In this document: in pieces, positions 14,622-62,937 of the stretch | How positions within the stretch are numbered: the stretch's first letter is position 1 | How the letters are laid out: each line of letters begins with the position of its first letter | NCBI RefSeq assembly: GCF_022201045.2 | Contig: NC_068562.1 | Span: forward strand, 3,844,001-3,908,000 | DNA: 64,000 nucleotides | Source: Citrus sinensis | Lineage: Eukaryota; Streptophyta; Magnoliopsida; Sapindales; Rutaceae | Direction of reading: 5' to 3' | The notes under the pieces: generated by a model | What the model saw: the letters and a program-made list of their open reading frames with translations, nothing else | What the model was told of the DNA's origin: nothing | The model's database searches: none | Translations under genes and position numbers: made by a program

Positions 14622-14957
14622 AGTTGAAATTGTTAAATGGACTGTTTGGTTAACAAGAAAATAAAAGAAAATTTCAATTCAGAGAACACTTGAATTTTAT
14701 TGATTCTTTCATAATGAAAATAGTACGAAACTAATTACATAGTTATTTATATACACAGCTGAAAATGCAGCTCGAGCTGATTACTAATTCTAACTAATCA
14801 AAACTAATCTTCACGTGTGCTGGTAATTACATAACCACCAGGTGCCACCTGGACATCCAAATCATCAATCTTTAACCGTGTGTTGTAGCTGCTGCAATCC
14901 TCTGTTTTATCTTCTGTTTGGCTTATCGTACTGCAAGCAAGATGAGCTTCCTTAACA
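14622..14957 (-). repeat. 3' LTR of Copia element 1
   Basis: 336 bp, matching 32047-32382 apart from one visible change (CAATTC versus CAATTT). The last ~50 codons of the pol frame run into this LTR and stop at 14804-14806. A CACGTG hexamer lies inside it. Confidence 0.95.
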
Positions 14958-17861: not shown

Positions 17862-19246
17862 TGTTGAGTATTAGAAAATGCATATTTATAAAGGAGAAAA
17901 CCGTCATTTTACATTTTAAGTCTTACTAACAACCCTTACTTTTATATATTTAACCTTCTTGTGATTTAATTACATGTGCTTTATTTTAATTAAGTATTTT
18001 ATGTATTTTAGGGGCATTATAGTCATTTCACAATAAAGGAGAGATCAGACGGCAAAACGGACATCACTTTTGAACTCAGGACGGTCGAAAACCTTAGGAG
18101 GAGCATAAAAGGAAAAATGGCACTATTCACATGTACGGTACTATTCACGTGTACGGTACTGTATACGTTACTGTTCACGACACTGTTCACATAGACGGAT
18201 GATGACGTGGCATTGACCGATGATGTGGCATTGACTGATGAGGTGTCACGATCCTGTTGGACTAAAATTCTTATGTACTGTTGATGGTGACGTGGCAGCA
18301 TATCAGTGGACGAAAAATCTCGCGTACGGTGCATGCATCACACAGGATTATTTTCAACCAAACCGCGTTATTGTTCATCCGGGTCAAACCGCGTTACTGT
18401 TCAAAGTCGGGTCAAACCGTGTTACTGTTCATCCGCGTGGTCAAACGTGGACTGTTGACTGATGACGTGGCGCAATCCTGAGCGTCCAAACTGTTTTTAA
18501 TCCGATGACCATGATTTACTCCATGTATCTATAAAAAGGGGGCCTCCCCCCCCTAATTTGATATCTCTGAATCCATTTTTGGGATCCATTTTCTGTAATT
18601 CCCTCTCCATCTTGTATTTTCTTCGTATTTTAATAAATTCCCATTTTGCCCCTAGTTCAATTATGAGTGGCTAATTTTCTTTCAAGCTTGGGTTGAAGGT
18701 GAAGTCTCAACATGTGTCATGGGCTTAATTTGGTAAATTTATTTTCTCTTCCCCTCTAGTTTTTGTGGATGTTTTGACTTCTCGTCGACAAATAATACTA
18801 ATCTTGTCTAGTACCGCCTTGGTTTCACCGGCCCTCTAGTACAAGGTTATTATTATTTGGCACGATAAGCCCTTAGCACCATATTGATTAGAGCGTGGTT
18901 CATGAGGTGTGGATTCCCCCCTCATGATTTAATTGGTATTAATACGGATTATTTAGCCTATGATGCATGTTGATACGGATCCAGATACCCAAGTACGTTA
19001 ATTTAATAGATTTTCTCTTCAATTTATTCTCTCCATTGCAATTCCAGTTTTAGAATTTATTCTCGCCATTTTAATTTAAGTTTTAGCATATTCCAAATCA
19101 TTTCCACCATAATTCCAACCACCCATTTACAAAATTAATTCTATATATAATTAAAATCCACCTCCTCGTGGGATCGACACTCGTCACCATTGATCTACAC
19201 TACAATAGATTCGTGCGCTTGCGAGTACATTAAAATTTGCACAACA
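17862..19246 (+). repeat. 5' LTR of Gypsy element
   Basis: 1385 bp. Inside are three ~28-bp tandem units based on GTCAAACCGCGTTACTGTTC (18354-18441) and several TACTGTTCAC/ATTCAC repeats (18120-18200). A TATA-type box is at 18528-18537, and AATAAA-like signals lie near 18630. Small frames within it occur in both LTRs and are not supported as genes. Confidence 0.96.
18528..18537 (+). promoter_or_regulatory. LTR TATA box
   Basis: TCTATAAAAA precedes a GGGGGCCTCC stretch in the middle of the LTR, where the U3/R boundary is expected. The same box recurs at 29697-29706 in the 3' LTR. The repeats upstream could be enhancer units. Confidence 0.65.
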
Positions 19247-19252
19247 AGTTTT

Positions 19253-19270
19253 TGGCGCCGTTGCCGGGGA
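19253..19270 (+). other. Primer binding site (tRNA-Asp)
   Basis: TGGCGCCGTTGCCGGGGA begins six bases past the LTR end and complements the 3' end of plant tRNA-Asp including CCA. This primer is usual for Athila/Tat-type Gypsy elements. A perfect AG|GTAAGT donor follows at 19270-19277. Confidence 0.9.
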
Positions 19271-19659
19271 GGTAAGTAATTTTAATTCATAGAATTAATT
19301 TTTGTGAATAATTTCTTTTATTTGTTTTCTTGTATTTTTTTTTATTATTAAAAAAAAAAGAAAAAAAAAAGTGAATCTACATTTAAAGGTTAGTATTTTT
19401 TTTTCTTTTTCTCTTCTGTAAAATTCTGTAATTTAATTTTCAATTTATTTTTCTTTGTAATTTTTTTTTGTTTATCTTATTAATTTATTTTTAGTTAATT
19501 TATTTCACATATTTGTTTTTGTGTATTTTTATAGTAAGGTTGTAATAGCGCAATAAGGTTAGTATCGTAATTTCTCCCTCTTCTTTATTTTTATTTGTTT
19601 TGTTCCCATCTTTATTTTTTGTTTTGTTTGCATCTTTATTTTTATTTTATTTATTTTGC

Positions 19660-22600
19660 ATGCATGGTCGTAGGTCATTATTACCTAATCTTGAACCTAT
19701 AGACCTTGAATTAGAAAAAACACTTCGCACACACAAACACGTTAAAAATAAAATGGATTTACAAGCACCACAGGAGAGGCCATTTAAGGACTATTTTAGT
19801 CCCTTAGCTAATTTGAGCACGTCATGCATAAGATACCCAAATGTAGCTGCTAGGAGTTTTGAATTAAAACCTAGTGTGTTAAATTGTCTCCCTACATTTT
19901 ATGGCCTAGAAAATGAGGATCCATATAATCATCTGAACGATTTTCATGTCATTTGTCAAACTTTTAAATATGAAAATTTTTCAGACGATGATGTTAAACT
20001 TAGACTATTCCCATTTTCTTTAAAAGATAGAGCTCGTTCATGGCTTAATACATTGCCTGCTAATAGCATTGCATCATGGGAACAAATGGTTACAAAATTT
20101 TTAAATAAATATTTCCCAGTGCATAAAACCAATGCTATTCGCAGGGAAATCTCGGAGTTTACCCAGAAAGATGACGAGCAATTTTTCGAAACATGGGAGC
20201 GATTCAATGGGCTACTCTTGAAGTGTCCACATCATGGGTACGAGAAATGGCACCAATGCCAATACTTTTTGGAGGGATTATTGCCGAATGTGCAAGAATG
20301 GCTAATGGCAACAAGTGGAGGAGAGCTAATGTCAAAAAGTGCATCAGAAATTTGGGAATTCTTCCAGCGACAAGCGGATAATTCCCAACAACGGAGTCGA
20401 TCACTCAGGAATACTAGACGAATTAAGGGAGTAAATGAGGTTCAAATTGGCGAGTCAACTTCGGGAATCAAAGAAGTCAAGGAGATGGTTGAAGGTCTTG
20501 CTCGACAAATAGCATCGTTATCGACTGTTAAATCAACAGAACCACATGACCATGACTCATACTCAGATCAAGCCAATGCCATAGGTGTAATGAGAAAACC
20601 ATCGAATTACAACCCATACTCCAACACATATAATCCTGGATGGAGAGACCACCCCAATTTTTCATGGTCTCAAGGATTCCAACAAAATGGACCAGCAGCT
20701 CCAGCTCCACCAATGCAACAAATTCCTCAAGCCTCTCAGCCCCCATTTAGACCATTCAATCAGAATCAGAACTACTCTCAACCCAGACCATGGGAGGATG
20801 CATTCCAAAATTTCAAGAATGTTACTCACTCCACGATTGAGCAACAGAACCGCACCATTGATGGACTACGAAATGAATTGAGAGCGGGCTTCAACTCACA
20901 AGCTCAATCAGTTTCAAGCCTCGAGAAGATGGTGGGACAACTCGCTTCTTCAGTTCAGACCTTGGCAATGACTGTTGAGAAAGGAAAATTTCCAAGTCAA
21001 CCAGTGCCTAATCCTAAAGGAGTGCATGAAGCGAGTACCAGTTCACCACAGCAGCATGAAGAGGTCAAAGCAATAATGACCTTGCGAAAAGGAAAAGAAA
21101 TCGACAACAAAGTGGAGATGCCGGTGACAAAGGAAAATCAAATTGTACCTGTAAACGTTGAGGACTCACCACCGGAGGAGAGAGAAGAAGCCAACCCACG
21201 AGAATACGTTCCCAAAGCTCCATTTCCTCAGAGGTTAGCGAAAGGAAAAAAGGGAAAATCTACAGGTGAGATTCTCGAAATCTTCAAACAGGTAAGTGTT
21301 AACATCCCTTTACTTGATGCTATAAAGCAAGTTCCATCTTATGCCAAGTTTCTTAAAGATTTGTGTACTAAAAAGAGAAACATGCATGTTCAAAAGAAGG
21401 CATTTTTAACAGAAAACGTTAGTTCTATACTCCAACATAAAATTCCTTTAAAATGCAAAGACCCAGGCTCCCCCACTATCTCATGTAGTATAGGGAACCA
21501 CACAATTGAGAATGCTTTGTTGGATTTAGGAGCTAGTGTAAATTTATTGCCTTACTCTGTGTTTGTGAAACTTGGACTGGGAGAATTACACCCAACTCCA
21601 GTGGTGTTACAACTTGCAGATCGGTCCACGAAAATACCTCGTGGTATTGTGGAGGACGTGCTTATCCAGGTAGACAAGTTTTATTTTCCTGTTGATTTCA
21701 TTGTAATTGACACTCAACCAATACAGGATTCAAGGAAGCACATCCCTATTATTCTAGGCCGACCTTTCTTGGCAACTGCGGATGCTCACATTCAATGCAG
21801 GACTGGAAATATGCAGTTGTCTTTCGGCAACATGACTATGGAGCTGAACATCTTCAACATTGCCAAACAACCTCACAGTGCAGATGATGGAATTGTTGAT
21901 GTGGATTTAATTGAAGCATTAGTTGATGATACTTTTGTTTCAAACCTTAGTGATGATTCTTTACAAACATGTTTAACTCACTTTGGTTTTGATTTTGATA
22001 TTGACAGATCGGTTGATGAGGTCAACGCCCTGCTTGACTCAGCACCATCTATGGACACTAATAAATGGAAGTCAAGAGTTGAACAACTAGCACCATCAGA
22101 GAAGAAACTCATCCCATCATCAGAATCACCACCGAAACTCGAGCTCAAACCATTACCCAACACATTGGAATATGCATTTTTGGGAGAAGAAAGTACTCTA
22201 CCGGTAATCATCTCAGCATCCCTCAATGACGAACAAAAAGGTAAGTTGTTGGATGTTTTGAAAGAGCACAAAGGGGCATTAGGATGGACCATAGCAGACA
22301 TTAAAGGTATAAACCCAGTAGACTGCATGCATTACATTCACCTTGATGAAAATGCTAAATCTACTAGGGAAATGCAACGTCGGTTAAATCCTAATATGAA
22401 AGAAGTGGTTAGAACTGAAGTCCTTAAGCTATTAGATACAGGTATCATTTACCCCATTTCTGATAGTTCATGGGTCAGTCCTGTACAAGTTGTCCCTAAA
22501 AAGTCATGAGTCACAGTAGTTACCAATGCTGATAATGAATTGATACCCACTAGAGTGACTACAGGATGGCGTGTATGCATTGATTATAGAAAGTTGAATT

Positions 22601-25041
22601 CTGTCACACGTAAAGACCATTTTCCTTTACCATTTATTGATCAAATGCTTGATAGATTAGCAGGACATGAATTTTATTGCTTTCTAGATGGCTACTCAGG
22701 ATATAATCAGATTCCCATAGCACCAAAAGATCAAGAGAAAACTACTTTCACTTGCCCTTTTGGCACATTTGCATATAAAAGAATGCCATTTGGATTATGT
22801 AATGCACCTGCTACATTTCAACGATGCATGCTAAGCATTTTTTCTGATATGGTTGAACGATTTCTTGAAGTCTTTATGGATGATTTTTCTGTCTTTGGTG
22901 ACTCGTTTGATCAATGTTTACATCATCTAACACTAGTTTTGCAGAGATGTGTCGAGAAGAACTTGGTATTAAATTGGGAGAAATGCCATTTTATGGTAAA
23001 ACAAGGTATTGTTCTCGGTCACATCATTTCGAGCAAAGGTATTGAGGTTGACAAAGCCAAGGTGGATCTCATTTCTAATCTTCCTCCACCCAGAACAGTC
23101 AGAGAAGTAAGATCTTTCCTTGGGCATGCTGGTTTCTATAGACGTTTCATTAAAGATTTTAGCAAAGTTTCTAGACCCTTATGCAATTTACTTGCTAAGG
23201 ATGTACCTTTTATCTTTAATGATTCATGTCTTATGGCGTTTGAAAAATTAAAACGGTTGTTGACATCATCACCCATCATTCAGGCCCCAAACTGGAGCTT
23301 ACCATTTGAGCTCATGTGTGATGCATCTGATTATGCAGTAGGAGCAGTATTAGGACAAAGAGTTGATCGAATTCCCCATGTTATTTACTATGCTAGTATG
23401 ACATTGAATGATGCACAGTTGAACTATTCAACTACTGAAAAAGAAATGCTAGCAGTAGTGTTTGCATTGGAAAAATTTCGATCTTATCTCATTGGTTGTA
23501 AAATAATTGTGTTCACAGATCATGCTGCTCTTAAATATCTTCTCACAAAGAAAGATGCAAAAGCTAGACTAATTCGTTGGGTGTTACTTTTGCAGGAATT
23601 TGACTTGGAATTCAAAGATAAAAAAGGGACAGAAAATGTTGTGGCGGACCATCTCTCTCGTCTCCATTTTGACACAATTATAGAACAATTACCATTAAAT
23701 GAGTCATTTCCAGATGAACAATTAATGAGTGTGGAAGTATTACCTTGGTATGCTGATATAGTTAATTATCTTGTTACAGGTAAACTTCCAGAGCATTGGA
23801 CCAAGCAAGATAAGGCTAAATTCTTTGCAGAGATAAAGAATTTCTTTTGGGATGACCCATATTTGTTCAAGTATTGTGCAGACCAAATTGTTAGACGATG
23901 TGTCCCAGAAAGTGAAATTCAGAATATCCTTTCATTCTGCCATGAACAAGCTTGTGGAGGCCATTTCAGCGCTAAGAAAACAGCGACTAAAGTTTTACAA
24001 TGTGGTTTCTATTGGCCATCTATATTTCGAGACGCTTACACTTTCTGTTCTTCATGTGATAGGTGTCAACGAATGGGGAGCATTACACGAAGGAACATGA
24101 TGCCACTAAATCCAATTTTAGTGGTTGAGATTTTTGACGTATGGGGTATCGACTTCATGGGACCCTTTCCCCCGTCTTTTGGCCATCAATACATATTGGT
24201 TGCTGTTGACTACGTATCGAAATGGGTAGAAGCAATTCCATGTAGGACCAATGATCACAAGGTGGTGATAGCATTTTTGAAAAGCAACATTGTTTCACGC
24301 TTTGGATTCCCACGAGCGATAATCAGTGATGGTGGTGCCCACTTTTGTAACAAAGCATTCAAAGCTCTTTTGACAAAGTATTCAATCACACACAAAGTGG
24401 CAACTCCGTATCATCCGCAAACCAGTGGCCAAGTTGAGATATCCAATCGAGAAATAAAGCACATATTAGAAAAAACGGTGAGGCCAGACAGGAAAGATTG
24501 GTCATTAAGACTTGATGATGCATTATGGGCATATAGAACGGCTTTCAAGACCCCGATTGGGATGTCACCCTACAGGCTAGTGTATGGAAAAGCTTGCCAC
24601 CTACCTGTGGAACTCGAGCATCGTGCATATTGGGCCATCAAGAAATTCAATTTTGACATGCAGCAAGCCAGCTCAGAAAGAAGATTACAGCTGGCAGAAC
24701 TTGACGAAATTCGCAATGACGCGTACGAAAATGCCAAGATTTACAAGCAACGAATGAAAGTCTTCCATGATAAGCAAATTATGAGAAAATCGTTCACTCC
24801 AGGTCAGAAAGTGCTTTTATTCAATTCTCGCTTGCACCTATTCCCAGGTAAGTTACGCTCTCGTTGGTCTGGCCCATTTATTGTTCATACTGTTTTTCCA
24901 CATGGGGCAATTGAAATTAAAGACCCAAAGAATGATGTCACGTTTAAAGTTAATGGTCAAAGATTAAAGCCATATCTAGAGTACCAACCACATGAAGAAG
25001 ACACCGAAATAAATTTGAGTGACCCACCAAATTTGAATTGA
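19660..25041 (+). pseudogene. Gypsy gag-pol polyprotein, interrupted by one in-frame TGA
   Basis: One frame of 1794 codons with a single TGA at 22507-22509, just before the reverse transcriptase core. The Met at 19660 was preferred over the Met at 19600 because the upstream residues are a T-rich translation. Order: Retrotrans_gag domain (first ~270 residues), a Gln/Pro-rich linker, and an aspartic protease with DLGAS (Asp622; Leu replaces the usual Thr). Then come a reverse transcriptase with [11 protein letters not shown] and the FMDD box (1072-1075), and RNase H ([10 protein letters not shown]). The integrase has an HHCC zinc finger and a DD35E triad (Asp1498, Asp1557, Glu1593). The pol end carries an RSRWSGPF motif. 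Everything either side of the TGA looks intact, so this is one mutation away from a full frame, or needs readthrough. Confidence 0.93.
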
Positions 25042-25169
25042 TTTTTTTTTTCTTTTCGTTGATTTGATTTTTCTTTCTTTCTTTTTATTATTATTCTTTT
25101 GCTAATTGAAATTGTTTTTGCATAAGTGTGTTTATTTTACCATTAAGTTTTCTCTTATCGTTTTTAATC

Positions 25170-25403
25170 ATGAGTACCTTACTTAGACCGTTCCTCCTGA
25201 ACATTCTTAAACCACTTCAACGTGTCAAAACTCATCTCAAAAGACAAATTCAATTTTGTAAAACACAACGCATTTGAGCTCTACAACCACCAGAGTTAGT
25301 AGCCTATGTTGAGGGTTTAGAACGCCAACTCCGAGACATTGAGAGAAGTGTTTACGACATCCAGTTGGAGCTTGAGGTAAATTCAATAAGAGGACGATTT
25401 TAA
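25170..25403 (+). pseudogene. Gypsy accessory frame A, small and broken by TGA
   Basis: A 78-codon frame (77 sense positions plus TAA) between pol and the cysteine-rich gene, with an internal TGA at 25275-25277 (codon 36). The first part is basic and Leu-rich. The second part is charged and heptad-like (LVAYVEGLERQL onwards), suggesting a short coiled coil. I do not recognise it. Continuation of sensible composition past the TGA in the same frame is the reason for calling it a former gene rather than noise. Alternatively, only the second half is real. Confidence 0.4.
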
Positions 25404-25544
25404 TTTTCTTTGTGTGTTTTAATTTGTTTTTCTTTTTGTGTGCTTTAGTTTGTTACCCCGGTGAAGTGGCGGATAACGGTACTCCGTGACAATCAAGTCG
25501 GTTACTTCAGTTTCCCATAATAACTGATATTCTGAGGCGAAGGT

Positions 25545-26018
25545 ATGGACAGAAACGAGATTCTAGCGAAGCTTCACAAGCGATTCCCTTCACTTCCTCA
25601 TAATGCCCTCCTTACGATCTATAAAGCTCGGTCCGAACGCATGCGATTACTCATGAGGAATAACATACCTGCTGACATCCGTTGGTTAATCGAGGATAAA
25701 GTACGATCGGCAGGTGAGTTACCTCCAAAATTTATTGCATACATGCCTGGTTGTGGTAAAGGAAATTATGCAAGAAAACGACGAGCGCGAAGAATTTCTG
25801 TTGCTTGTCATAAGTGTGCCAGAATGAGTTGCAATAAAAACCCATGTTCTTTAGGAATGATGTCTGATAACAGGGAAGATAAGATTCAATTCATTAGGGA
25901 TGGCTTGAATAAGGAGTCATTGGATGATATCCTTTTGTCTCTTGAAACGCATCCCAGTGGATATGTGCAAGGAGCGATTCTCCAGTTATGGCCATTATTC
26001 CAGAAAGAGCATGCATGA
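25545..26018 (+). CDS. Gypsy accessory frame B: basic cysteine-rich protein, plant-virus NABP-like
   Basis: 157 residues, intact. The N-terminal third is helical and charged. Residues 72-83 form a basic patch around a Tyr-Ala pair (NYARKRRARR), directly followed by a C-x2-C-x4-C-x4-C cluster (Cys88, 91, 96, 101). A short hydrophobic IQFIRDG segment comes next. This order of Tyr-Ala, arginine run, CxxC pair, further cysteines and a conserved FI.xG tail matches, from memory, the cysteine-rich nucleic-acid-binding proteins of carla-, allexi- and related flexiviruses, some of which suppress RNA silencing. The similarity is by motif; no search was run. The ATG is the first one after a strong pyrimidine-rich TTTAG at 25448. 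It could instead be an unrelated zinc-ribbon protein. Known biological role in a retrotransposon: none that I know of. Confidence 0.6.
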   Translation: MDRNEILAKLHKRFPSLPHNALLTIYKARSERMRLLMRNNIPADIRWLIEDKVRSAGELPPKFIAYMPGCGKGNYARKRRARRISVACHKCARMSCNKNPCSLGMMSDNREDKIQFIRDGLNKESLDDILLSLETHPSGYVQGAILQLWPLFQKEHA

Positions 26019-26422
26019 TATAGTCTCGGGAATCTGACTATAAACGACCCTGTTTGCCAGTTTATAAGAAAACTGGATAGGAAGCCTATCCTCGACCCAT
26101 AGAGGGCGTTCAAGCCGTTTCTGGACGTAAAACCAGAGGAAGATGTGAGCCACAGTCGCAACTACCTGTAAATATCCTTTTACTTTATTGTTATTTTATT
26201 TCACTATTGTCTTATTGTTTGCATTATTGTCTTTAATAATTTTATTACTGTTTGCTTTTTCCTTTTTACTGTTTTCTTTTTGACTTGCGAGCCACGTGCT
26301 TTACGCATTATTTGACACTAACATATTACCTCATACACAACCATGACCCACTATCACCGAGACTCTTAAATGTGATTTCTTTTTTGTCAAGCACTCACAA
26401 ATTGTTTTCGAGAAGTATCACA

Positions 26423-27085
26423 ATGGCAGCTACTCCCAATAGACAATTCAAGAACATTTGTGTGCTTTCTGGATTTACCTATGGCAAACATAAAGAGTTC
26501 GTTGAGGCAGCCATTGGTCGAAGCATAGCAGCGAGAAAATTACACTTGGTGTATGGAGGAGGTAATCGAGGGTTATCAAAAATGGTCTCAGAAGCAGCTT
26601 TTATCAGAGGAAGTCAAGTGTTAGGCATCATCCCAAGAGTCCTAAAACCATTGGGCAGTTCGTCTGACTCATCAACTGGAGAAGAGTTAGTCGTCTCAGG
26701 TATGCAAGAAAGAATAACTGAAATGCTTAATTATGTTGATGCTTTTATTTTCCTTCCAGGAGATCTTGCAACACTAGAGGCACTTATGACACTAGCATCT
26801 TGGGCCCATCTACACATTCACCAGAAACCCATCGGTTTGTTAAATGTCAATAACTTTTATGATGGCTTTATCGCATTTCTTAACCATGCAATAAAAAACT
26901 ATTTCATTCCCGCTAATGTGAAAAAACTTTTTATTTGTGCTCACACTGCTAATGAGCTACTTGATCTGTTACAAGCTTATAGACCGGAGCCAGACCCCTG
27001 GACCTTCGTGTTGGAGCGTCCAAATAATGATGGTAACAGTAGCAGCAGTAAGAAGTACAAATTAGATTTAACTCTCCGCCTATAA
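26423..27085 (+). CDS. Gypsy accessory frame C: LOG-like (cytokinin phosphoribohydrolase fold) protein
   Basis: 220 residues from the Met at 26423; the frame is open upstream to 26252, but the MAATPNRQF start fits the family length (~215). LOG enzymes release free cytokinin bases from their riboside monophosphates. Family features present: KNICVLSG near the N terminus, LVYGGGNRGL (42-51), GIIPRVL (68-74), the M-x2-R segment (Arg97), an ADAFI-like strand and HQKPIGLLN. The catalytic signature PGGxGTxxE is altered at 112-120 to PGDLATLEA: two glycines are lost, and the final Glu is Ala, with a Glu one place earlier. No introns, whereas plant LOG genes are split, so capture through RNA is likely. 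Activity is doubtful; binding, decoy or new functions are possible. Confidence 0.85.
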   Translation: MAATPNRQFKNICVLSGFTYGKHKEFVEAAIGRSIAARKLHLVYGGGNRGLSKMVSEAAFIRGSQVLGIIPRVLKPLGSSSDSSTGEELVVSGMQERITEMLNYVDAFIFLPGDLATLEALMTLASWAHLHIHQKPIGLLNVNNFYDGFIAFLNHAIKNYFIPANVKKLFICAHTANELLDLLQAYRPEPDPWTFVLERPNNDGNSSSSKKYKLDLTLRL

Positions 27086-29030
27086 ATATTTTCTTCTGTG
27101 TTGCACCACCTAGGTGATGTCTTCTAAACTCTACTTCTTTCCTTTCAAACATTGAGGACAATGTTTCATTCTGGTTGGGGGGAGGGAATAGTCGACAATT
27201 GTAGAATTTTGGTTAAGTTTTTACTAATTTTTGTTGTAGAAACTAACTGTTGCTAACTTTTTGTGTTGAAGATGGCTGAATATGGAGTGTAGTGACTCTA
27301 GAAACGCATCTTCATCGTTTATAAAAAAAAAAAAATTCAGACATTTTCTTTTTCTTTATTATGTGTTTATGTTTATTTTTCTTCTTTTTAATTTCTCCTC
27401 TATAAATATACATTTTCCAACTTTTGAGTCGAAGATGGCTGAATATGGAGTGTAGTTCCTCTAGAAACGCATCTTCTTTAAAAAAAAAAATCATTTTCGT
27501 TTTCTATCATTTTACGTGTAACTTTTCTAATTAGTTTTTATGCATCATTTTCACATTTCTGCATGCATATTTTCCTTTCATGTTTAGAATAGGTTGGGGG
27601 GTAGAATGTTGTTTAAAAAAAAAAAATTTTGTGTGATTTGTTTTAACATTGGGTGACATGATTAATTTTAAATTTTAGTATTTGTATTATCTTTGGTCTT
27701 AAGTGATGTTACATTATGTTTGCTACTCTACATGTTGATGTCGGAGACATATATGAGTTGCTTGAAGGAATGAACATGTCATAATAAGTACCAAGTGAGT
27801 TTTTGAGCCTATTATTTTTCTTGGAGAATAACCCTTTTGCCCACTCTTTATACAGCTTAGCAGTTTATTATTTTATACACGATCTCTAAATTACTTTTGA
27901 GTTAACCCTAAAAAAAAATTGTAAAATAAAAAAAAAGAAAAAAGAAAAAGAAAAAAGAGTGTGTTGCTACATTTGGAGGCCCATCTAACTAGTAGATATG
28001 GAAGGTTATTCAGAGCCCTAAAAGACGATGGAAAGGCCATCTTTGATCCGTTTGAGCCTTTCTAGCCATCCCTTTTATTAAATATCCATAGTTAACCCTT
28101 TTGAGCCTTTAAAAAATATATATATATATATATATATTTTCTTTGTCAACTTATCATCTTGACCCACTCCGATTTGGAGTATTACCCGATGTCTTATAAG
28201 TTCCATCACCTATTTATGTTTGAGAAAATGTAAATAATTATGTTGTTCAGTGAAGTTATGCCAAAAAAATAAAAAATAAAAAAAATAAAAATAAAAATAA
28301 AAACAAAAACAAAAACAAAAACAAAAGTTGTTGTTTCAAAAGAATAAAAATAGGTGAAATCCACCTTGCAACTTCCAAAAAAAAAAAAAAAAAAATTCTC
28401 TGCATTTTTCTCAAACATACACTTTGTTTTCCTTATTTTCCTTCTTTGTTAGCCATGTCCCTAGCCTACGTTTCATCCTAATAAAAGTCCTTCTTGATTT
28501 TAGGGAACTATAGTTTGAAGTAGAAACTAGTTATATGGGCTAAAAAGATGTAGTGATGCATAATTAAAAAAAAAAAAAAGAAAGATAAATAAAGTGGGTT
28601 GACTAACATTTTATTTGACTTGAGATCGTATTATTTCTAAGCTGAGGGCATATTTATTTCATCTTGGTGAGAGCATGTGATATCACTTCTTTATTATTTT
28701 CTCTCTCAATTACCATTCATTGGAGTGACTATTTTTATTGGGATTAATTTATTTGTGAGAGTGTCACTACTTCCAGTGAGATTTTGGGGTTTGACATGTC
28801 ATTCTTGAGAGTAGCTAAAACAAAGTCTACTGGGCTAATTCATGTGGATGGTTGATGTGGGTGTGATGTTGCTTTAGACTGGAGATAATGCTTATACTTT
28901 TATTTGAGTGTTATCATTAATCTGATGGAATAAATACGAGTGTTTCTATTAAAAAAAAAAAATTATTTTGAATTTGAATTTTGTTTTCGCTTTATTTGCT
29001 AGGGACTAGCAATAAGCTGGTTGGGGGGTG
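27086..29030 (+). other. Gypsy 3' non-coding region with purine tracts and repeats
   Basis: No gene seen. Three GGTTGGGGGG purine tracts occur (27173-27187, 27592-27602, 29019-29030), the last being the probable priming tract next to the 3' LTR. Also present are two copies of a 46-nt segment (27268-27313, 27431-27476), a TA run near 28119-28137 and several A-rich stretches (27921-27957, 28261-28325, 28377-28395). Confidence 0.75.
27268..27476 (+). repeat. Duplicated 46-nt element with short inverted ends
   Basis: Copies at 27268-27313 and 27431-27476 differ at two positions. Each begins GAAGATG and ends CATCTTC, so each could form a 7-bp stem. Each is followed by an A-run. Confidence 0.75.
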
Positions 29031-30415
29031 TGTTGAGTATTAGAAAATGCATATTTATAAAGGAGAAAACCGTCATTTTACATTTTAAGTCTTACTAACA
29101 ACCCTTACTTTTATATATTTAACCTTCTTGTGATTTAATTACATGTGCTTTATTTTAATTAAGTATTTTATGTATTTTAGGGGCATTATAGTCATTTCAC
29201 AATAAAGGAGAGATCAGACGGCAAAACGGACATCACTTTTGAACTCAGGACGGTCGAAAACCTTAGGAGGAGCATAAAAGGAAAAATGGCACTATTCACA
29301 TGTACGGTACTATTCACGTGTACGGTACTGTATACGTTACTGTTCACGACACTGTTCACATAGACGGATGATGACGTGGCATTGACCGATGATGTGGCAT
29401 TGACTGATGAGGTGTCACGATCCTGTTGGACTAAAATTCTTATGTACTGTTGATGGTGACGTGGCAGCATATCAGTGGACGAAAAATCTCGCGTACGGTG
29501 CATGCATCACACAGGATTATTTTCAACCAAACCGCGTTATTGTTCATCCGGGTCAAACCGCGTTACTGTTCAAAGTCGGGTCAAACCGTGTTACTGTTCA
29601 TCCGCGTGGTCAAACGTGGACTGTTGACTGATGACGTGGCGCAATCCTGAGCGTCCAAACTGTTTTTAATCCGATGGCCATGATTTACTCCATGTATCTA
29701 TAAAAAGGGGGCCTCCCCCCCCTAATTTGATATCTCTGAATCCATTTTTGGGATCCATTTTCTGTAATTCCCTCTCCATCTTGTATTTTCTTCGTATTTT
29801 AATAAATTCCCATTTTGCCCCTAGTTCAATTATGAGTGGCTAATTTTCTTTCAAGCTTGGGTTAAAGGTGAAGTCTCAACATGTGTCATGGGCTTAATTT
29901 GGTAAATTTATTTTCTCTTCCCCTCTAGTTTTTGTGGATGTTTTGACTTCTCGTCGACAAATAATACTAATCTTGTCTAGTACCGCCTTGGTTTCACCGG
30001 CCCTCTAGTACAAGGTTATTATTATTTGGCACGATAAGCCCTTAGCACCATATTGATTAGAGCGTGGTTCATGAGGTGTGGATTCCCCCCTCATGATTTA
30101 ATTGGTATTAATACGGATTATTTAGCCTATGATGCATGTTGATACGGATCCAGATACCCAAGTACGTTAATTTAATAGATTTTCTCTTCAATTTATTCTC
30201 TCCATTGCAATTCCAGTTTTAGAATTTATTCTCGCCATTTTAATTTAAGTTTTAGCATATTCCAAATCATTTCCACCATAATTCCAACCACCCATTTACA
30301 AAATTAATTCTATATATAATTAAAATCCACCTCCTCGTGGGATCGACACTCGTCACCATTGATCTACACTACAATAGATTCGTGCGCTTACGAGTACATT
30401 AAAATTTGCACAACA
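29031..30415 (+). repeat. 3' LTR of Gypsy element
   Basis: 1385 bp, matching 17862-19246 at all but three visible positions. The TGTTG start follows the GGTTGGGGGGTG purine tract directly. It ends CAACA before AGGAA. Confidence 0.96.
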
Positions 30416-30420
30416 AGGAA

Positions 30421-32029
30421 CAACTTGAGTAGCTGACTCAACAGTTGTGACATGATTTCGAGAAAGAGTTTTATTGGGTGACATCAACAGCAATCTGTAT
30501 AAACCTTTGTCAGCCTTGCCCTGTAGTATGATCAAATTCTTCACCTTGTCCTTCACAAAGCAAAATTTATCAGTGAATTCAATTGCCACATTGTTGTCTT
30601 TGGTTAACTGGGATATGCTAATAAGATTTTTGGTAATTTGAGGAACCAGCAGCATATTGTACAGGTTAAGTGAGAATGAAGCTTTTGTATTATAATCATG
30701 CATCTTTAAAGTGGCATGACCAAGATGGGTAATGTTTAAATTAGCACCATTACCAACTACAAGTTTAGATATACCTGCAAAAGGCTCAGCAACCTGCATG
30801 TTGTTCATGTCATTAGTGAGGTGATGTGTTGCCCCACTGTCAAGATACCAGTTGGTATCTGAAGCACCTTCCATGTTTGCTAGATAAGCAGACCTTGGAT
30901 TCCTGTTTGGTGGTGATTTATAAGCTCCTGAAGAAATGAACTCTTCAAGCTTCCAGCAGATATTAGCTGTATGACCTGTCTTAAGACAAATTTGACAAGT
31001 AGGTTTAGAAGCATTCCATTGAGGTTTAACATTTCCAGATGTTTTGTTATTATTGAAGTTGCCATATCCACCAGGATTCTGATTCCAGTTCCCTCAATTT
31101 CTTTGATTATCACTAAAATAACCTCTTTGCTGGAAATTAACACCAGATGAATTTCCTCCATTGACTCCAGCACCTCCAGAATTTCCTTTATAGCCACCAA
31201 AACCATAATATCCAGTATTACCAAAACCAGGATTGTATCCATAACCACCAAAATTCTTACCTCCAGATATAAAGCCTTTCTTAAAACCTCTGTTCTGGAC
31301 TAAATTTGCCTCAAAGTTATGTTTCACATCCATACCAGCAAGCATGTGTGCTTGTTGCTCTATTCTAGCCTCTTGAGTTAACAACATTGCATAAGCCTCA
31401 TTCACATCCATTTTACCAACTCCTATTTGACCAGTTATGTATGTAGCCACAGAATTATATTCAGGTCCTAAACCAGAAATTATGTGTAGAATCAAATCAT
31501 CATTAGTTAAAGCACTTCCAGCAGCAGCCATATTATCAGCTATGTTCTTCATCTTAATGAAAAAATCAGTGACTTTCATATCATCTTTCCTAGTCGAATT
31601 CATCATGTACCTCAGATGCAACAATTTGGATTTAGACTGTGAACCGAATTGAACTTTAATAGCTTTCCATACCTCAAGTGAAGTTTCTAGACTGAAGACT
31701 AGACTGATGATTCCTTCACTCATTGAAGAAAGAAGCCATCCAAGCAGCATCTGATCTTGAGATCTCCAGGTGACATACTCTGGATTTTCAACAGATCTGA
31801 GATCATCACCAATTCTTTGAGCAATGTGAGAAGGTGGAGGAGTTACAGAATCATCAATGAATTTTTCAAGTCTGTTTCCACGAATGGAAGCAAGAACTTG
31901 AGATCTCCAAATTAAGTAGTTTGCTTGATCCAGCTTAACAGGAGTGTTGAATGAGAAGGTGACTGTGCTTGTATTAATGGCGGCATTATGAACTGTATTA
32001 GATGATGCAGCAAGATTTACTGAAGCCAT
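30421..32029 (-). pseudogene. Copia 1 gag and protease (5' part)
   Basis: Starts at the Met at 32029 just inside the 5' LTR. The gag has a UBN2-type segment (NYLIWRSQVLASI, then LLHLRYMMNSTR), a Gly/Asn-rich stretch, then a CCHC zinc knuckle (CQICLKTGHTANIC). A protease with DSGATHHLT (DTNWYLDSGA) follows, then the beginning of GAG-pre-integrase. A TGA at 31094-31096 lies in frame in the Gly/Asn-rich stretch. The frame before and after the TGA, and across the Gypsy insertion once the insert is discounted, is the same. That confirms it was one polyprotein. Confidence 0.9.
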
Positions 32030-32046: not shown

Positions 32047-32382
32047 AGTTGAAATTGTTAAATGGACTGTTTGGTTAACAAGAAAATAAAAGAAAATTTC
32101 AATTTAGAGAACACTTGAATTTTATTGATTCTTTCATAATGAAAATAGTACGAAACTAATTACATAGTTATTTATATACACAGCTGAAAATGCAGCTCGA
32201 GCTGATTACTAATTCTAACTAATCAAAACTAATCTTCACGTGTGCTGGTAATTACATAACCACCAGGTGCCACCTGGACATCCAAATCATCAATCTTTAA
32301 CCGTGTGTTGTAGCTGCTGCAATCCTCTGTTTTATCTTCTGTTTGGCTTATCGTACTGCAAGCAAGATGAGCTTCCTTAACA
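32047..32382 (-). repeat. 5' LTR of Copia element 1
   Basis: 336 bp, matching 14622-14957 at all but one visible position and followed by the AAAAT duplication at 32383-32387. Confidence 0.95.
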
Positions 32383-57612: not shown

Positions 57613-57954
57613 AGTAGAAAATCAATAATATTGAAACAGAGAAAACAGAATTTGTTTATTTTTCACAAAATCACAATACAACGAATTTGTACATTATTCT
57701 CTTTATATACATCAGTAGTGATTTTAACTAACTAACTTTTATAACTAATCATAAAAGCTAATTAGCTAATTATCTAACTAACTATTTTGCACAAGAAAGA
57801 CTATAACAGATTCTATTAATCTTCACGTGTGCAAGAGATTACAAAATCACCAGGCTCCAGCTGGCAAGCCATGTCATTCACTTGTATCTGTAAACAGTTG
57901 GTGTTACAATCCTCTACTTCACTGACCATTCTATGCATACGAGCTTCCTTAACA
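57613..57954 (-). repeat. 3' LTR of Copia element 2
   Basis: 342 bp. Carries the last ~45 codons of the pol frame, ending TRED then stop at 57816-57818, as in Copia 1. Confidence 0.95.
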
Positions 57955-60900: not shown

Positions 60901-62578
60901 ACTGTGCTTCAGTATGTGACTGAGAAGCAGTTTTATTCTGAAACTTAGAACTAACAGCAAAAAACATTGAAATGGGTTGAGTTGAGACAGCTGACTCAAC
61001 ATGAGCAAGAAGGCCCTGGTTTAACAAATAAGAAGAAGATTTGTTTGCTGAGACTAATAGCAATCTGTACAATCTTTTTTTAGCTTTGCCCTACAACATG
61101 ATCAGATTCCTCACCTTGTCCTTAACAAAACAGAAATCATTAGTAAATTCTATCACAACATCATTATCTCTAGTTAGTTTGGATATACTAATCAGGTTTT
61201 TGGTTATTTTAGGCACAAGAAGAATGTTGTTCAGCTTAAGCTCAAATTTATTTACAGAACTTTGCATTCTCAAAACAGCACAGCCTGTATGTGTTATGCA
61301 TAAACCAACACCATTTCCAATGACAAGTTTAGAAGTACCTGCAAAAGATTCAACCATATGCATATTGTTCAGATCATTAGTGAGATGGTGAGTAGCCTTA
61401 CTGTCAAGATACCAATTTGTATCAGCTGGAGCATTCATGTTAGCTAAATAAGCAGCTTTTGGTCCTCTATTTGGTGGTGGTCTGTAAGCACTTGAAATAA
61501 TGAATTCTTCCAGCTTCCAACAGATGTTTACAGTATGTCCAGGCCTGAGACAAATCTGGCAAGTAGGTTTTGAAGTATTCCACTGAGGTTTAGAATTCAT
61601 AGGTGGTTTGCCATTGTTAAAGTTGCCAACTCCATTATTATTATTCCAGTTACCTCCTCCTCCTCCTTTTTGATTGCCTGACTGATAGCCTCTAAACTGA
61701 GTATTAAAACCAGTACCAGCACCAGCAGAGTCAGTACCAAAATTTCCTTTGTAATAACCACCATTTCCAATTCCAGAATTATAACCATAACCACTAAAAC
61801 CTCTTCCACCTGACATGTTATTCTTCTTAGCTCCTCTGTTTTAAGCATAATTAGCCTCAAAATTGTTCTTCATATCTACGCCAGCAAGCATTTGTGACTG
61901 TTGTTCAATCCTAGCCTCTTGAGTTAAGAGCATGACATATGCCTCATTCACATTCATTTTTCTAACTCCTACTTGACCAGTAATGTAAGTAGCTACTGAA
62001 TTATAATCTGGTCATAGTCCAGATAACACATGCAAAATCAGATCATCACTACTTAAAGCACTTCCTGTTGCAGCCATATTGTCAGCTATGTTTTTCATCT
62101 TAATAAAATAGTCTGTAATCTTCATATCATTTTTCCTTGTAGAATTCATCATGTACCTTAAATGGAAAAGTCTAGATTTAGATTGCGAGCCAAATTGTAC
62201 CTCAATTGCTTTCCACACTTCAAGTGATGTTTCCAGGTTGAACACTAGACTTATGATTCCTTCACTCATGGAGGAGAGCAGCCATCCAAGCAGCACCTGG
62301 TCTTGAGATCTCCATGTTATGAATTTTGGATTTTCCACAGATCTGAGTTCATCATCAACTCTTTGAGCTATATGAGATGAAGGAGGAGTGATCGAACCAT
62401 CGATAAACTTTTCAAGCCTATTTCCACGAATTGAGGCTAGAACTTGTGATCGCCATATGAGATAATTGGATTGATCGAGCTTGACTGGTGTATTAAAAGT
62501 AAAAGAAACAGTAGTTGAATTTGCAGCAAGATTTTGAGTTTGGTATGAGGAAGAAGAAGCAAGATTTGCAGACGCCAT
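57816..62578 (-). pseudogene. Copia 2 gag-pol, decayed
   Basis: Starts at the Met at 62578. Gag with NYLIWRSQVLASI; CCHC knuckle (CQICLRPGHTVNIC); protease with LDSKATHHLT, where the catalytic Gly of DSGA is Lys. The integrase triad lies in HTDLWGP, QSDWGGEY and VERKHRHI. The reverse transcriptase has YVDDILITG, and RNase H has DADWACD. Breaks in the otherwise continuous frame: TGA at 62012-62014, TAA at 61841-61843, TAG at 61091-61093, a 4-base loss near 58590 and TAA at 58326-58328. The linker between integrase and reverse transcriptase contains an internal run of near-identical AATSNTTP-type repeats (59690-59815). The damage fits an older insertion than Copia 1. Confidence 0.9.
59690..59815 (-). 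repeat. Minisatellite in the Copia 2 pol linker
   Basis: Six or so 27-bp units (GTGGTGTTTGAGGTTGCAGCTG type on the plus strand) encode Ala-Thr-Ser-Asn-Thr-Thr-Pro-like repeats. Copia 1 lacks them at the same place. Confidence 0.85.
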
Positions 62579-62595: not shown

Positions 62596-62937
62596 AGTAG
62601 AAAATCAATAATATTGAAACAGAGAAAACATAATTTGTTTATTTTTCACAAAATCACAATACAACGAATCTGTACATTATTCTCTTTATATACATCAGTA
62701 GTGATTTTAACTAACTAACTTTTATAACTAATCATAAAAGCTAATTAGCTAATTATCTAACTAACTATTTTGCACAAGAAAGACTATAACAGATTCTATT
62801 AATCTTCACGTGTGCAAGAGATTACAAAACCACCAGGCTCCAGCTGGCAAGCCATGTCATCCACTTGTATCTGTAAACAGCTGGTGTTACAATCCTCTGC
62901 TTCACTGACCATTCTATGCATATGAGCTTCCTTAACA
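62596..62937 (-). repeat. 5' LTR of Copia element 2
   Basis: 342 bp, about 2% different from 57613-57954 by eye, followed by ATAGG. Confidence 0.95.

Follow-up and report, generated by a model that had tools for sequence, protein, structure and literature searches.

A probable accessory gene resembling flexivirus cysteine-rich proteins in an Athila-like retrotransposon family of Citrus sinensis

Introduction

It is a long-standing question how retrotransposons reach high copy numbers despite small-RNA silencing, and no plant LTR element is, to our knowledge, proven to carry an anti-silencing gene. A stretch of 64,000 nucleotides of the Citrus sinensis genome (contig NC_068562.1, the window in what follows) bears on this question. 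A reading made from its letters alone pointed to a small frame downstream of a retrotransposon pol gene and compared the product to the cysteine-rich proteins (CRPs) of carla- and allexiviruses. Does a retrotransposon family carry such a gene, and has it been kept as a gene? As described below, we think it probable that an Athila-like Ty3/Gypsy family carries the frame as a conserved accessory gene, whose central domain is homologous to flexivirus CRPs and which selection has kept.

We found no report of a CRP gene in retrotransposons in the open-access literature, and such a gene is not mentioned in the available portions of PMC7145672, PMC6466647 and PMC11963269. Plant Ty3/Gypsy elements, including those of the Athila lineage, are known to have extra open reading frames (aORF/eORF) that, like the CRP gene, lie forward between pol and the 3' LTR; in the sections available to us these are described as env-like, Athila ORF-1-like or lacking a known domain, and no viral CRP domain is named (PMC7264820, PMC6317226, PMC11728184). 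One of these surveys, according to its accessible text, counted extra frames only from 250 codons upward, and so a gene of 182-185 codons would escape it (PMC6317226). Other plant Gypsy lineages have also kept accessory domains, for example an orchid m6A demethylase, PMD and G-patch; as far as the source was available, these are mostly domains of cellular proteins, although G-patch is also known from type D retroviruses, whereas the CRP resembles RNA-virus proteins (PMC9289625).

The element and its surroundings

The features of the CRP-bearing element are listed in Table 1. The gag, protease, reverse transcriptase, RNase H and integrase domains follow each other between the LTRs in the order found in Ty3/Gypsy elements, the Athila lineage included, and the primer-binding-site-like stretch is one that we take to be of the Athila/Tat type. 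The Pfam scan of the element found no chromodomain, and the gag-protease and pol frames matched no zinc-knuckle (CCHC) family at E ≤ 10. Judged by these sequence features, the element is Athila-like Ty3/Gypsy. It had been called young and near-intact; its age is borne out by the LTRs, but a stop parts gag-protease and pol, which share one reading frame, and so the element is not intact.

Table 1. Coordinates in the window of the CRP-like gene and of the retrotransposon that carries it
Feature	Position	Strand	Basis
CRP-like gene, window copy ending early	25545..26018	+	ORF list, Pfam, homologue alignments; 157 aa vs 185 aa in most scored copies
Rest of CRP reading frame as in full-length copies	26019..26102	+	Full-length homologues and genome copies
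Gypsy element carrying the CRP	17862-30415	+	LTR pair with Gypsy domains between
5' LTR (TG...CA)	17862..19246	+	1387-base direct repeat, 99.78% identical (3 mismatches); ends read by eye
3' LTR	29031..30415	+	Direct repeat
Target-site duplication AGGAA	17857..17861, second copy 30416-30420		Read by eye
Primer-binding-site-like stretch TTTTGGCGCCGTTGCCGGGGA	19250..19270	+	Just inside 5' LTR
gag-protease frame, stop just before reverse-transcriptase match	19600..22509	+	Retrotrans_gag 6e-20, Asp_protease_2 5.3e-6
pol: reverse transcriptase, RNase H, integrase	22540..25041	+	RVT_1 8.4e-31, RT_RNaseH 3.2e-37, rve 4e-16
LOG-like gene, 220 aa, PGDLATLEA in place of PGGxGTxxE	26423..27085	+	PF03641 4.4e-27

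The Gypsy element is inserted in a Copia element of the opposite strand, the LTRs of which (14622-14957 and 32047-32382, 336 bases) differ by one mismatch, and both insertions look young. Three TGACGTGGC repeats, presumably similar to bZIP-binding motifs, were read by eye in the 5' LTR at 18200-18475. The Rfam families snoR71 and snoZ247 match the minus strand at 20137-20240, 31377-31513 and 61923-62059, that is, in the Gypsy gag region, in the Copia gag frame and at one further place; these two families may contain transposon sequence. A pair of direct repeats about 5 kb apart (57613-57912 and 62596-62895, 98% identical) is probably another LTR element.

The CRP frame and its copies

The 157-residue ATG frame downstream of pol is real, and its many homologues put it, as a sequence comparison, far beyond chance. 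A protein search with the window CRP gave 169 homologues at E ≤ 10 (the best 120 of which were listed) and a profile search gave 796 (again the best 120). However, the window copy is not intact, as had been supposed. A search of the plant's own genome (299.7 Mb in 11 contigs) produced 1813 first-look candidates; the best 150 of these were scored and all have 97-100% identity with no stop inside the match. By our reading of the list, 188 codons are open in 146 of the 150, and the four exceptions have 160 (the window), 160, 187 and 211 open codons. Because full-length relatives are 182-185 residues long as well, we conclude that the window CRP ends 28 residues early (157 vs 185) and that intact copies exist elsewhere in the genome. 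The FI-x2-G sequence that had been described as a tail sits 15-19 residues past the last cysteine, within a conserved region, and the 185-residue form continues for 65 residues beyond it.

The element family is large and recently active. After 10 duplicate loci had been dropped, and with loci L069-L089 outside the counts, pol lies upstream of the CRP in 56 of 58 unique fetched copies and a LOG-like gene downstream in 57 of 58, the window included in both; the placement of the CRP in Gypsy elements therefore holds in its own genome. The stop codon of the CRP in 58 copies is TAG in 53 and TAA in three. Except in the two most diverged rows, another 22 codons with similar residues follow this stop (26103-26171) before the next one; readthrough or another constraint is possible.

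Likeness to viral cysteine-rich proteins

The window protein contains NYARKRRARRISVACHKCARMSCNKNPC, in which C-x2-C-x4-C-x4-C comes after a basic patch; KRRARR stands shortly before CHKC, which places a basic, putatively NLS-like patch next to the zinc finger. The order of these two parts is that of carla- and allexivirus CRPs, as the sequence-only reading proposed, but the spacing is not the carlavirus one, since carlavirus fingers are reported, in the excerpts available, as CX2CX12CX4C or, elsewhere, as CX2CX9CX4C (PMC3689765), compared to CX2CX4CX3-4C in 102 of 127 members of 160-215 residues here.

A search with the window protein alone falls short of significance. Carla_C4 (PF01623) is its top Pfam match (E 0.007, 16.7 bits with a cut-off of 20.9) and Viral_NABP (PF05515) is also below its cut-off (E 0.038, 14.4 bits vs 23); the near copy P0001 is likewise under both. 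The family as a whole does match. In an alignment of 19 sequences, with 18 relatives out of 34 non-redundant ones, 18 match Carla_C4 and 15 match Viral_NABP at E ≤ 0.1. A second alignment holds 83 diverse, non-redundant members (82 of 84 picked rows, without P0060 and P0084, plus P0193), and at E ≤ 0.001, which is looser than the curated cut-off, 61 of them match Carla_C4 and 60 match Viral_NABP, the best E values being 3.7e-8 and 1.2e-8, respectively. None of 10 reversed or shuffled controls matches either family. All five reversed controls, however, matched the unrelated family Stress-antifung at E values of 6e-4 to 0.03, and so only stronger values count. Ten hand-picked members were scanned singly, and six of the ten pass the curated cut-off of each family; with Viral_NABP, for example, P0040 reaches 4.5e-8 and P0128 3.5e-8, and the match spans 81-89 residues in the best members, extending beyond the cysteine motif. 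The profile check suggested for this protein thus succeeds for the family and not for the window copy.

Could an Arg/Lys patch beside four cysteines match viral profiles weakly without any common descent? The zinc-finger spacing unlike that of carlaviruses, the sub-threshold score of the window protein and the Stress-antifung matches, which give an E value near 0.001 little weight, would fit such convergence. We nevertheless consider it quite improbable, because best E values near 1e-8 in two viral families, matches in at least 60 of 83 members and a Viral_NABP match running through 81-89 residues all argue against it. From these profile matches we infer homology with the viral CRPs.

The central domain would then consist of a helix, the basic NLS-like KKRRA patch and the four-Cys zinc-finger-like motif. 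Among the 83 members, conservation reaches 93-99% for the four cysteines and 90-94% for the KKRRA patch (positions 77-81). The best-conserved stretches, ahead of both, are residues 161-185 and 102-137 (mean entropy 0.70 and 0.83, compared to 0.93 for the basic patch and 1.06 for the Cys motif). Carla_C4 matches end at about residues 92-98 and Viral_NABP matches at about 116-127, and so of these stretches only about 102-121 falls within a Viral_NABP match; this part may belong to the viral-like domain. The C-terminal third, beyond about residue 127, is conserved and matches neither Carla_C4 nor Viral_NABP, and the family thus combines a viral-like domain with a part that is peculiar to it. Flexivirus CRPs, i.e., those of carla-, allexi- and mandariviruses that Carla_C4 and Viral_NABP describe, share with the element CRP the basic patch directly before the four-Cys motif, the significant profile matches across the element family and a small single-frame gene in the 3' part of the coding region. 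They differ in that their profiles do not match the conserved C-terminal part and in being the 3'-proximal gene of a positive-strand RNA virus, whereas the CRP gene here stands between pol and the LTR of a retrotransposon.

Several other searches complete this picture. Over the whole genome of the plant, one locus passes the Carla_C4 cut-off and none passes that of Viral_NABP, and neither family has a match in 14 control genomes, so that the Viral_NABP scan found nothing in any genome. The single locus is another copy of the CRP element with a short internal deletion, and an independent endogenous carlavirus was therefore rejected as its source. Viral relatives were not found in IMG/VR with the single CRP protein or with the alignment, and NCBIfam had nothing for the CRP. 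A profile search of solved structures gave no convincing match; its best row, Cullin-5 (E 0.027), had no stretch passing on its own and was discarded. The structure model of the CRP (mean pLDDT 69.9, pTM 0.38) has confident helices at about residues 1-50 and is weak around the Cys motif, and a PDB fold search with it found nothing. In papers that name PF01623, as far as their text was available, the number is used for HAGH_C, a glyoxalase II domain, and these were set aside.

Selection on the gene

Variants among the copies were compared by Fisher tests between singletons and variants common to at least four copies, with the class of two to three copies left out and with the old copies L021 and L053 excluded from pooled counts and variant classes. 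The N/S ratio of singletons is 2.38 in pol, 2.32 in the CRP gene and 1.65 in the LOG-like gene, where the neutral expectation is 2.53, 2.50 and 2.39 with a transition bias of 4 and 3.51, 3.42 and 3.25 without it. In the shared variants the ratio falls to 0.37, 0.95 and 0.65, respectively (p = 1e-10, 0.016 and 0.0019). The variants in two to three copies are intermediate between the other classes for pol (1.36) and the CRP (1.30); those of LOG (2.53) are not. When pairs are pooled, pN/pS amounts to 0.19 for pol, 0.38 for the CRP and 0.32 for LOG. Compared to L021 and L053, dN/dS is 0.31 and 0.23 for the CRP, 0.38 and 0.28 for pol, and 0.34 and 0.28 for LOG. Thus, constraint on the CRP is weaker than on pol in shared variants and in pooled pairs, but its dN/dS against the two old copies is no higher than that of pol. 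Shared CRP variants show a signature of purifying selection and the singletons look neutral, and this depletion of amino-acid changes rules against neutral decay in all copies. Most of the sampled copies were picked for the similarity of their CRP, a criterion that prefers conserved copies; with singletons so close to neutral, this bias seems small.

The state of the copies depends on how they were chosen, and because protein similarity was used for this, the following counts of intact frames and indels are biased upwards. Among 23 copies chosen by the LOG gene (from the upper rows of 150 listed matches, the window's own copy left out), the CRP is full in 21, broken by a stop in one and absent from one. 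Seven of eight copies from the best-150 set have a full CRP, the other one being the window, as do six of a further eight. A diverged query selected 40 copies; the frame is full in 23 of them and interrupted by stops in the other 17. The CRP is almost free of indels and the spacers have many, in a sample chosen by CRP similarity. The stops in those 17 copies, together with the weaker constraint on the CRP in shared variants, are what one would expect if the frame were a captured fragment, functionless and copied along with the element. The depletion of amino-acid changes in shared variants next to near-neutral singletons, the scarcity of indels and the full-length CRP frames in several plant genera speak against such a passenger, and we disfavour it as very improbable.

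The LOG-like gene

The product of the gene downstream of the CRP passes the cut-offs of PF03641 (95.3 bits vs 27) and TIGR00730 (118.3 vs 96.35) and does not reach that of NF058542 (83 bits vs 300). It matches Arabidopsis LOG-type structures that read PGGYGTLEE or PGGYGTMEE where the window reads PGDLATLEA, and the PGGxGT motif is found in none of the best 120 of 566 LOG-like homologues. PGGxGTxxE is, we assume, the catalytic motif of LOG enzymes. As the gene is under constraint and lacks PGGxGT, a non-catalytic or altered role is likely, and its sequence suggests that the protein is likely a pseudoenzyme carried by the retrotransposon. The window copy has two residues fewer than other copies, and the closest named proteins, among the matches listed, are from Citrus x changshan-huyou.

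The presence of a LOG-like gene in Citrus Gypsy elements is already published. The YgdH domain, which also occurs in LONELY GUY proteins, is reported in the available text of PMC9289625, citing Steinbauerova 2011, for consensus Gypsy elements of C. sinensis and C. clementina, and these are probably the same kind of element as the one described here; neither 'carla' nor 'nucleic acid binding' occurs in the main text of that paper.

Public Citrus records label element-like LOG genes (P0219, P0263, P0291 and P0294) as cytokinin riboside 5'-monophosphate phosphoribohydrolase; one cluster of them holds 705 member sequences, and some gene models fuse the CRP and LOG. Such annotations may inflate LOG gene counts.

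Occurrence in other plants and the direction of transfer

Named relatives of the CRP, among the matches listed, come from Xanthoceras, Acer and Citrus in the protein search and from two Populus and Rhamnella in the profile search. The five outside Citrus have 182 residues each and 56-65% identity to the window protein. In a tree of 109 rows, Acer and Xanthoceras are joined at 100/91 and the two Populus at 100/99; the Sapindales come together at 47/88 only. CRP homologue clusters have up to 566 member sequences, a size that fits repeats, although repeated sampling may also be a source.

The likeness to viral CRPs suggests gene exchange between viruses and retrotransposons, as judged from sequence. 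The traffic could have been reverse or older, with the domain being an old plant or retroelement gene that flexivirus ancestors took up. Its occurrence in several rosid genera at such identities and with an unchanged length points to long residence in plants, and the tree does not conflict with inheritance along the host lineages. However, the tree has no outgroup or viral members and groups the Sapindales only at the value given above, and the viral side is also old, with CRPs of the carla/allexi/mandari group spanning two virus families according to the accessible part of PMC12172455. We regard this direction as possible, if somewhat doubtful.

What the protein might do

The viral CRPs of this group are described, in the portion of the source available, as silencing suppressors and pathogenicity factors, and one, p12 of chrysanthemum virus B, as a transcription factor causing hyperplasia (PMC12172455); their functions are also covered in PMC3689765. 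By analogy, the element CRP would be predicted to bind zinc and nucleic acid, to enter the nucleus and perhaps to affect silencing. Since the profile matches coincide with purifying selection, a virus-CRP-like domain with its basic patch and four cysteines has been kept by transposing elements. In this scheme the central domain joined, or acquired, its own C-terminal part and has since been held by selection. The CRP would be expressed from a 3' transcript, enter the nucleus and bind nucleic acid through the basic patch and the zinc finger. It might then raise expression of the element or protect its RNA; as with viral CRPs, the route could be a weakening of small-RNA silencing or an action on transcription.

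The main functional rival, because no zinc knuckle was found in the gag and pol frames, is a packaging role. The CRP would then be a nucleocapsid-like helper, i.e., a small zinc-binding RNA chaperone or packaging factor for the element's own RNA, and its viral likeness would reflect the same job rather than counter-defence. A basic, Cys-rich protein that is kept by selection would suit this role. Nevertheless, we consider it rather unlikely, as viral CRPs of this type are reported, in the part of PMC12172455 available, as silencing suppressors or, in one case, a transcription factor.

Concluding remarks

Returning to the conserved accessory gene with a flexivirus-like central domain, which we favour, a wider reading can be offered tentatively, as a possibility rather than an expectation. 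A plant retrotransposon lineage may carry an RNA-virus-type silencing suppressor, or nuclear regulator, as a standing counter-defence, together with a former cytokinin-activating enzyme without its active motif as a possible decoy or regulator. If the domain moved between retrotransposons and flexiviruses, the two would have components of a single anti-silencing toolkit in common.

Short accessory genes can go unnoticed in surveys that consider only long extra ORFs. The CRP gene suggests a connection between two kinds of plant parasite, of which we found no description. Finally, a selected, virus-CRP-like gene in a family of at least 150 near-identical copies in one genome makes the question of how retrotransposons persist in the face of small-RNA silencing directly testable.
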